Origin: Bolinopsis microptera
Lineage: Eukaryota > Ctenophora > Tentaculata > Lobata > Bolinopsidae
Reading direction: 5' to 3'
Assembly: GCF_026151205.1 (NCBI RefSeq)
Contig: NW_026971866.1
Location: 1-26,472, forward strand
Length of the DNA stretch: 26,472 nucleotides
This document shows, in pieces, positions 9,931-12,900 of the stretch. The notes below the pieces were generated by a model that saw only the letters and a program-made list of their open reading frames with translations, was not told the origin of the DNA and ran no database searches. Each line of letters starts with the position of its first letter. Position 1 is the stretch's first letter. Both the position numbers and the translations under genes were made by a program.

Positions 9931-12900
9931 GTAAGATTGTTATATCCTGTACTTTTAGGAGTTTATATATAACTAATAACTATAAGTATATGCGACACAA
10001 ACTGTATTGTCTAATTATAAGATAACAATCAACATGTAACCTGATTTTCACTAAAAAGTTCAATATTCAAATTTCTGTAAACTGTATGCTCACAACATCA
10101 GTTCCCATTCAATGTCCTCGTTTCACTGTATCCCTCAATAAATCTGAATTTTATTAACTCCATGTATCTCTTTGTTGCAGGACAAGAGGACACATCTGTT
10201 ATAGCCCTATATGCTTACCAAAAGAGGACTAATTCTGATATTAGCTTTGAGAAGGTATGTGTCTTCTGTTTTAATTATTCATTTTCAGCTGATAGAGAGC
10301 CAAGGTTATATTTCAAGCCAGGTCGTTGCTAATTCATAGTTAAACATTTCTTTGCTTACCACACTAGGTAAATGAGTAAAAATAATGTTATTTGGTGCAT
10401 AGTTATTATGGAGTATTATCTAGTGGGTGCTCTGTATTATCTGTAACGTGTTTTCAATAATAATGTCTGCTTCTATTGAAATGAAATTCCATCTATCGTT
10501 CAATTCTCATTTTCACAACTTTATGTTAACTGGATAAATTTGCCTTCATCCCATTGGGCCACAGTCCACACTGGTAATTTTTAACACTAATTTAACACTA
10601 ATTATTAACATTACAGGATGATATCTTAGTGGTGTTGGATAAGAGCAACTCGGACTGGTGGAAAGCCAGAAACACCCGCACTAGAGAGGAAGGTTACATC
10701 CCCTCTAACTATGTTGCTTCTGTTCACTCTCTCGAGGCTAAAGCGTGAGTAATCACTTATCTCACGTGATAATGTCACGTTTTACTCCAGACAGTGTCAC
10801 GTGTCTTTTTGTTATTTGTAGTCATCAGTTTGTAAATAAAATTAACAATGATCTACAGTGTGTCGATTAAAACAGTACTTGTTATTACTTAATGGGACAA
10901 TGGGTGTGTTGCAACTTTTACAAATGACGAAATATTACAAATTACACTTTACACACTGACAAACACACTGACAACACACAAGATGGTACTTTGGCTTGAT
11001 AAAACGACGAGAAGCAGACGAGAGCTTGAAGAACTCCGAGCCTGGAACCTTCCTGGTCAGAGAAAGTGAGACAAGACCTGGTACTCTGAGTCTGTCTCTG
11101 CGTAACGCGCAAACCACCGACCTCCGACAACTTATCAAACATTATAACATACGCCGACGCGAGACTGGACAGTACTTCATCTCTATGAACTTCAACTTTG
11201 ACAGTGTACAAGAACTCATTGACTACTACTCAAACAACCGTGGTGAGTGACCACTATTTTTTTTCAGCTGGTATTTCGGTCTAATTAAACGAAGCGACAG
11301 TGAAGCCTATCTCAAGCAAACCCAGCCGGGCTCGTTCCTGGTGCGTGAGAGTGAAACTAGGCCTGGAACCTTGTCCCTGTCTGTTCGGGGAGAAAACAAC
11401 GATGCTGGGTCAGCCGTGATAAAACACTTCTGTATAAGAACCAAGTCAGAGACAGGCGAGGTGTTCATCAGTAACAAGATTGAGTTCCCTAACGTTCACG
11501 AACTTATTGCTTACTACCGACAAAACAAGGGTAACGTTCATTCTTCCTGCATGTTCATTTTTCCTGCATGGAATTTAACAGATCAACGCCGGCATTTAGT
11601 TTGGAAGTTTTAAAATTTAAAATTTTAGAAGTTACATTTTCACATGAAATCATTTAAACGTGTACCTCCGCTACACGCTAGACAACTTATTTGCAAGCAT
11701 AAAGCAAATCTCCGCAAGACACGTATTCTTACAAGATGATTTTAGCTGGTTCACGGTAGGTATGCAAACTTAATGTCCTGAGTGTACAATGTAAGAATGT
11801 AGGAGAACTACGCCCCCAACAGCTATAATAATAATTTCATCTTTTTATTAACATTTTAGACTGCTCCTTATTCTATAACACACGCGGTATTCGGTAACAC
11901 TTTACATAACTTACATTTGTGTAACCAGATTACAACACCACCCTTCATGTGATACGTTAGATGTGGGATGCATTAGTAAGCTAGGTGTATCGTGTAAGAT
12001 TACCAAACGTCCTTACATAATCAATAATATTCCTACATATTCCTACAGTCCTACATTTCACTTTAAAGGAGTTGCCGGCTCATGTTGTGGCTCTATCTCA
12101 TGAGTGAGAAAGGGTGCTCTCCTCTACTTGCTCAATGATCCCCTAACATTGCTCCTTACAATTTCCATCTATTTTTAGACAATGTGGGGAATGTAATCAC
12201 GCACTAAAAAGCTGTTTAATAACATGGTGTTATCCTGTTTGATTATATCACTTCTTAGTGTATCATATTTCCGAACATCTGTGTAGGATACTCTATTGCT
12301 CGGCCCACTCCTCAAACGTAATCAACCCTAAAAGACTCAATAACAAAGTAATTAGCGAGCTGCATCACTTGCATGTACTGAAGAGAGCCCCCCCCCCCCC
12401 CCCAGCTCTACCCACACACACACTCTCAGTGTGCTATCATATAAGTAGCAGGTGCTTATTCTGCCTATTCATGATCCGGACTCTCCGTGTGACGTCACTC
12501 CTCTCCTCAGCTCTCTTCTTTAGAGTTATTTTATAATACAGTGATAGCTAAGTGCGAATACTATTTATTATTCTCTAGCACGGCAATATAATGTGGGGCC
12601 CGGAATCTGCATAGTTTTTGTTTGGCCATAATAAATTCTGATGGTAAGCAAGCTTCCTGGATCTCTCTCTCTCTTTGAATACTCATCTCAAACATTTTTT
12701 CTGCAAGTGACGGACATTTCCGGGCAAGATATTTATGTTAAGTTAATTATCGCACCTCATATTATATAATATTCAATGTGTACTTCAATGTGTACTTCTG
12801 CACTGTCCCATTTAACATTCCCAAATTTGAAACCTGAAACAGCTTTTCACATCAGTTTCCTGCTGAAGTAGACTTACTCCTGAAAGAATTCCTCGCCTAT

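Follow-up and report, generated by a model that had tools for sequence, protein, structure and literature searches.

Organization of the gene

This study concerns a gene for a tyrosine kinase of the Src type in the lobate ctenophore Bolinopsis microptera, and in particular two adjoining exons of this gene that each encode an SH2 domain and are predicted to be used one at a time. The window, that is, the whole stretch of DNA analysed, is a contig of 26,472 nucleotides (nt) (NW_026971866.1, here C107) from a genome of 264.65 Mb in 232 contigs, and the gene is known here from this one genome. It occupies positions 9822–19868 of the plus strand. Each message contains 10 exons, and exon 4 is present in two versions, referred to as exons 4a and 4b, or simply a and b. 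The predicted product has 488 or 489 residues, depending on the SH2 exon, and runs from an N-terminus beginning with MGC through the SH3, SH2, and tyrosine kinase domains to a tail ending in EGQYDET.

All exons lie on the plus strand. Exon 1 (9822–9930) carries the start codon, an N-terminus of the lipidation type (MGCIESK), and a proline-rich unique region, and ends in phase 1; the MGC suggests that the N-terminus is lipidated. Exon 2 (10181–10254) encodes the first part of the SH3 domain and exon 3 (10617–10744) the remainder, and the SH3_1 profile matches across the two with 64.4 bits. Exon 3 ends with AAA GC in phase 2, followed by the donor gtgagt. Toward its 3′ end, intron 3 (10745–10982) is rich in CA and contains two branch-like motifs (CTGAC), a tract nearly without T, and the AAG acceptor of exon 4a (10983–11242; 260 nt, 86 whole codons). 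A spacer of 25 nt (11243–11267) separates this exon from exon 4b (11268–11530; 263 nt, 87 whole codons), and in it the exon a donor, gtgagt, runs directly into the T tract of exon b and its cag acceptor. Exon 5 (13217–13356) supplies the end of the SH2 domain (a 10-residue stretch), the SH2–kinase linker, and the first part of the kinase domain. The rest of the kinase is encoded by exon 6 (13940–14095; N-lobe), exon 7 (14956–15111), exon 8 (15444–15607; catalytic loop and activation-loop tyrosine), exon 9 (19286–19404; C-lobe), and exon 10 (19708–19868), which contains the kinase end, the tail AMEGQYDET, and the stop codon.

The original prediction had placed this gene in the Src family. Among the best 60 of 3103 PDB matches, isoform a scored 488 bits against Src, 464 against Fgr, 440 against Hck, 378 against ABL1, and 334 against BTK. 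The product has the MGC-type N-terminus, the SH3–SH2–kinase order, and the tail tyrosine of Src-family kinases. This tyrosine lies in the constant last exon, where EGQYDET aligns with the Src tail sequence EPQYQ; in Src, it is required for autoinhibition through binding of the tail by the SH2 domain. The catalytic loop, on the other hand, reads HRDLAARN, compared to HRDLRAAN in aligned Src. The HRDLRAAN loop is a hallmark of the Src family, and we do not treat it as defining outside vertebrates. Because of this difference in the loop, "Src-type by architecture and similarity" appears to be a safer label than exact orthology. The activation loop in exon 8 is 3 residues shorter than that of Src.

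Reading frames and domain integrity of the two SH2 exons

Both SH2 exons are entered in phase 2, completing GC|A or GC|C (alanine in either case) with exon 3, and both leave one G that is joined to the GG of exon 5 to give glycine. The coding sequence amounts to 1467 nt with exon a and 1470 nt with exon b, compared to 1730 nt with both exons and 1207 nt with neither. When the splice combinations were translated, an early stop appeared after 195 codons if both exons were included, after 132 codons if neither was, and after 192 codons if the spacer, which carries an in-frame TGA, was retained. Recomputation reproduced all of the exon coordinates, phases, and coding totals of the original prediction, and the frame breaks with their early stops bear out its argument that the exons can be read only one at a time.

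Each exon encodes an SH2 domain minus the short terminal part supplied by exon 5. All 77 positions of the Pfam SH2 profile (PF00017) were matched in both isoforms, with 76.0 bits for a and 65.6 bits for b at a cut-off of 21, and the FLVRES arginine is retained in both, in agreement with the earlier claim that both copies are intact. Structure models of each exon alone, built with a nine-sequence alignment, were SH2-like, with a predicted local distance difference test (pLDDT) score of 83.0 for a and 85.4 for b. Among the 50 PDB matches listed for each model, the best for model a were SH2 domains led by those of Src and Abl (template-modelling (TM) score to the query 0.73–0.83), and the best for model b were the SH2 domains of Fyn, Src, and Hck (TM score 0.59–0.70).

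Divergence of the pair and selection on both copies

Exons a and b share 48 of 86 residues (56%) and 55% of their DNA letters, with identities of 62%, 72%, and 33% at the first, second, and third codon positions. The proportion of differences was 0.33 at replacement sites (pN) and 0.85 at synonymous sites (pS), the latter being saturated. In a simulation, exon a was allowed to decay neutrally until its DNA identity had fallen to the observed level; of 2000 runs, 53 ended without a stop, and protein identity never exceeded 38%, compared to the 56% observed. Saturation of synonymous sites together with limited replacement argues that the tandem duplication is old and that selection has since retained both copies. 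Gene conversion between a and b was rejected in view of the third-position identity of only 33%.

In a tree of exons 4a and 4b, human SRC, and 7 of the 29 other SH2 stretches of the genome, several of them fragmentary (the locus C11:12706609 was left out), exons 4a and 4b were sisters with support of 95/96; four of the seven inner branches of this small tree were poorly supported. The same 7 stretches also served for the alignments behind the structure models. Since the two exons group together, the pair most likely arose, as far as such a tree can tell, through tandem duplication within the lineage of this gene. A profile search of the genome returned at least 33 SH2 stretches, among which complete SH2 domains less than 300 bp apart occurred only in the pair described here and in its counterpart on a second contig; no further SH2 exon pairs were found among these stretches. 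Two partial SH2 pieces on contig C6, 7 kb apart, were set aside as another candidate pair. By eye, they resemble what we take to be the two SH2 domains of a gene like that of the PI3K regulatory subunit. Relatives of exon b were also sought in viral contigs, where none of 5 pattern matches was confirmed.

These divergence data bear on the possibility that the pair serves mainly as an on/off control of dose through message decay, the two SH2 domains being functionally equivalent. Such a role would be in keeping with the early stop in every product other than those of single inclusion, and a 16-residue stretch is common to a and b. However, dose control does not call for two complete and divergent SH2 copies, and 38 of the 86 residues that can be aligned are not shared, some of them at positions corresponding to the ligand surface of Src. 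We consider this explanation fairly improbable.

Splice sites and a proposed mechanism of exclusion

The available text of two studies (PMC6692369, PMC7969005) gives the smallest workable distance from a 5′ splice site to a branch point as about 50 nt, measured in human systems, and describes mutually exclusive splicing as being enforced below this limit. In the Bolinopsis gene, the entire spacer between a and b, at 25 nt, lies below it. The nine other introns of the gene, counted with exon a in place, measure 238–3678 nt, and a non-systematic look by eye at six other kinase loci identified no very short introns. From this geometry, the branch point of exon b would be confined to the spacer or to exon a, so that the two exons would not be definable together.

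The mechanism that we propose, steric exclusion, follows from this arrangement. The 25-nt spacer would be too small for the spliceosome to join a to b. U1 bound to the exon a donor would block exon b at its branch point or acceptor, and vice versa, so that one exon would enter each transcript. A candidate branch A for exon b lies at position 11250, 8 nt into the spacer and overlapping the donor of a; alternatively, the branch point may lie within exon a. Residual splicing errors would run into the early stops and be degraded.

The two acceptors differ in composition. The T fraction of the exon a tract is 0.06, compared to 0.24–0.59 in the other nine acceptors of the gene; the tract is CA-rich and ends in AAG. 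Its total pyrimidine content is slightly lower than that of the others (0.47 vs. 0.53–0.76). Nine-letter comparison with the donor consensus gave 7 matches for exon a and 6 for exon b. We suggest that exon b, with a T-rich tract and CAG, may be the default, and that exon a, with a CA-rich tract lacking a T run and with AAG, may need an activator. A search of positions 10745–13216 for inverted repeats that could dock with each other found five pairs, none of them convincing as a basis for exon choice.

A second copy of the locus

A second contig, C102, holds the locus in reverse orientation from the position matching window position 9901 onward, with 95–99.6% identity in the main aligned blocks. 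Both SH2 exons are retained there in like order, and the spacer between them is 26 nt. The six letters beside each compared exon border are identical on the two contigs, the 5′ side of exon 1 being outside the covered region. The simplest reading is that the two contigs are two haplotypes of one animal; the copy on C102 may alternatively be a recent gene duplicate. Intron 3 shows 1 mismatch between the contigs over the aligned stretch, compared to 7 differences in exon 4a, which may reflect regulatory constraint or merely uneven divergence. In the long intron 8, a segment of about 3.4 kb of C102 (approximately 16604–20060) is without counterpart on either strand of the window.

Of the 7 differences between the two contigs in exon a, 6 are synonymous and 1 is a replacement; exon b shows a single difference, which is synonymous. 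If about three quarters of random changes are replacements, the chance of at most 1 replacement in the 7 changes of exon a is about 0.001 by our own rough binomial estimate. This result speaks against the view that only one exon, probably b, is used and that exon a is a relic that has lost its function. Such a view finds its basis in the 3′ splice site of exon a, which is without a T tract and ends in AAG. However, exon a scores higher than b as an SH2 domain, contains no stop, and has a donor nearer to the consensus than that of b, and we regard its being a relic as very unlikely.

Comparison of the two contigs also addresses the integrity of the assembly. The two copies of the locus are each found on a small contig (26.5 kb for C107 and 27.2 kb for C102), and chromosome-size contigs matched the locus solely through short repeats and other SH2 genes. 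The gene could therefore be lost by pipelines that discard unplaced scaffolds. The small size of both contigs could be taken as a sign of an assembly artefact or of two separate genes collapsed into one. Nevertheless, the two copies agree in exon order and splice-site letters while differing by 0.4–5% in the main aligned blocks, exons a and b are far too divergent to represent a duplicated read error, and the repeats that flank the locus match the remaining genome; an artefact is hardly credible. Finally, a kinase with tandem SH2 domains that includes both exons, as two adjoining SH2 exons with usable splice sites might suggest, can be dismissed, since at the sequence level a full-length product is refuted by the frame break at the a-to-b join and the early stops after joining or retention, and the spacer is only 25 nt.

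Strength of the case for mutual exclusion

The two exons are adjacent, homologous, similar in length (260 and 263 nt), flanked by equal phases, and under selection, as is characteristic of mutually exclusive, tandem-duplicated exons. Several points weigh against the exclusive use of two functional exons by the mechanism given above. First, the limit of about 50 nt was derived from human systems and may not be that of the ctenophore. A search for the branch site CTRAY for exon b found none in the spacer or nearby sequence, and the branch points named above are guesses. Second, the weak acceptor of exon a could mean that this exon is rarely used. The view of b as a simple default is in turn weakened by the small gap in total pyrimidines and by the weaker donor of exon b. 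Third, recent selection on exon b, taken alone, rests on a single difference between the two contigs. Fourth, over the same 50 matches, model b fits the SH2 domains of the PDB less tightly than model a does (root-mean-square deviation 3.7–6.9 vs. 1.5–3.8).

With these points taken into account, the frames, the integrity of both domains, the selection on the copies, and the spacer of 25 or 26 nt all support the original reading of mutually exclusive SH2 exons. The short spacer, the T-poor AAG acceptor of exon a, and the second contig go beyond what the original prediction had noted. From analysis of the DNA, we put at roughly 85% the probability that the gene encodes a Src-type tyrosine kinase and carries a tandem-duplicated pair of SH2 exons that are mutually exclusive. 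One gene would then probably make two differently wired Src-type kinases.

Predicted consequences of the SH2 swap

In the alignment to Src, both exons retain the FLVR arginine together with the arginine that opens helix A, the BC-loop residues SET, and the strand D histidine. Their roles are taken to be those of the aligned Src residues. Differences between the two exons fall in strand D (HYN in a, HFC in b), the CD loop, and the EF region (MNFNF and NKIEF), as well as along helix A and in the terminal part of helix B. Shared pocket residues combined with differing surface positions indicate, as judged from this alignment, that the phosphate pocket is constant and the surrounding surface variable.

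The two predicted kinases share catalysis, the SH3 domain, and the tail, and they would differ in the SH2 surface and hence in partner choice and in the strength of tail closure. A more specific, tentative scenario is that one SH2 domain clamps the phosphorylated tail to give a closed kinase, while the other holds it poorly to give an open kinase with different partners; cell type would set both activity and wiring through exon choice, and the pair would date far back in ctenophore history. We offer this as a conjecture that is rather less likely than not.

Other features of the window

At positions 15585–15830, the 3′-terminal 23 nt of exon 8 and its 5′ splice site are found in three tandem copies with a period of 78 nt, which places two additional donor-like sites after the real exon 8 donor. 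Overlapping alignment pieces suggest that copies of this repeat are present on C102 as well. On the minus strand, positions 2164–3651 contain an open frame of 495 amino acids with a FADD motif, which by eye we take to be the reverse transcriptase of an element without long terminal repeats (non-LTR).

Comparison with known systems

FYN carries an alternative exon pair that we take to be exons 7A and 7B, giving FynB and FynT. According to the available text of PMC9741552, this exclusive tandem pair lies directly downstream of the SH2 domain and covers the linker and the ATP site. The FYN pair encodes the SH2–kinase linker and the kinase start including the ATP site, whereas the ctenophore pair encodes nearly the whole SH2 domain, in another lineage and at another exon.

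The logic of exclusion has parallels elsewhere. In alpha-tropomyosin and in exons 4a/4b of OGDH, exclusivity likewise results from too little room between the 5′ splice site and the branch point, as far as the available text of PMC7969005 and PMC6692369 describes them. In those genes, a longer intron holds a branch point that is far removed from the 3′ splice site downstream of it, whereas here the entire intron would be 25 nt. In another ctenophore, Mnemiopsis leidyi, a cluster of tandem exons in Mhc2 (cluster-0) is likewise predicted to be mutually exclusive in the accessible part of PMC3912159. That pair encodes part of the myosin motor, and the pair described here encodes a signalling domain. 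Splicing also alters an SH2 domain in the case of GRB2 and Grb3-3; as described in the available portion of PMC9519967, Grb3-3 loses 40 SH2 residues by skipping without replacement. Among the titles and abstracts retrieved from the open-access literature on Src and SH2 splicing, no mutually exclusive SH2-domain exons were found. The logic of exclusive splicing and the architecture of the kinase are known; what is newly seen is the swapped SH2 domain and the unusually short spacer.

Significance

Control of Src is a textbook case in which a single SH2 domain has two jobs, the clamping of the tail and the binding of partners. A gene in which the kinase, SH3 domain, and tail are constant and the SH2 domain is variable would provide a natural test of the share of the SH2 domain in activity and wiring. 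The compact arrangement with its 25-nt spacer in itself predicts exclusivity, and, for a lineage that branches near the base of the animals, the gene points to a signalling kinase with exclusive splicing at the level of a whole domain. If the proposal is true, splicing in an early-branching animal exchanges the domain with which a Src kinase reads phosphotyrosine.
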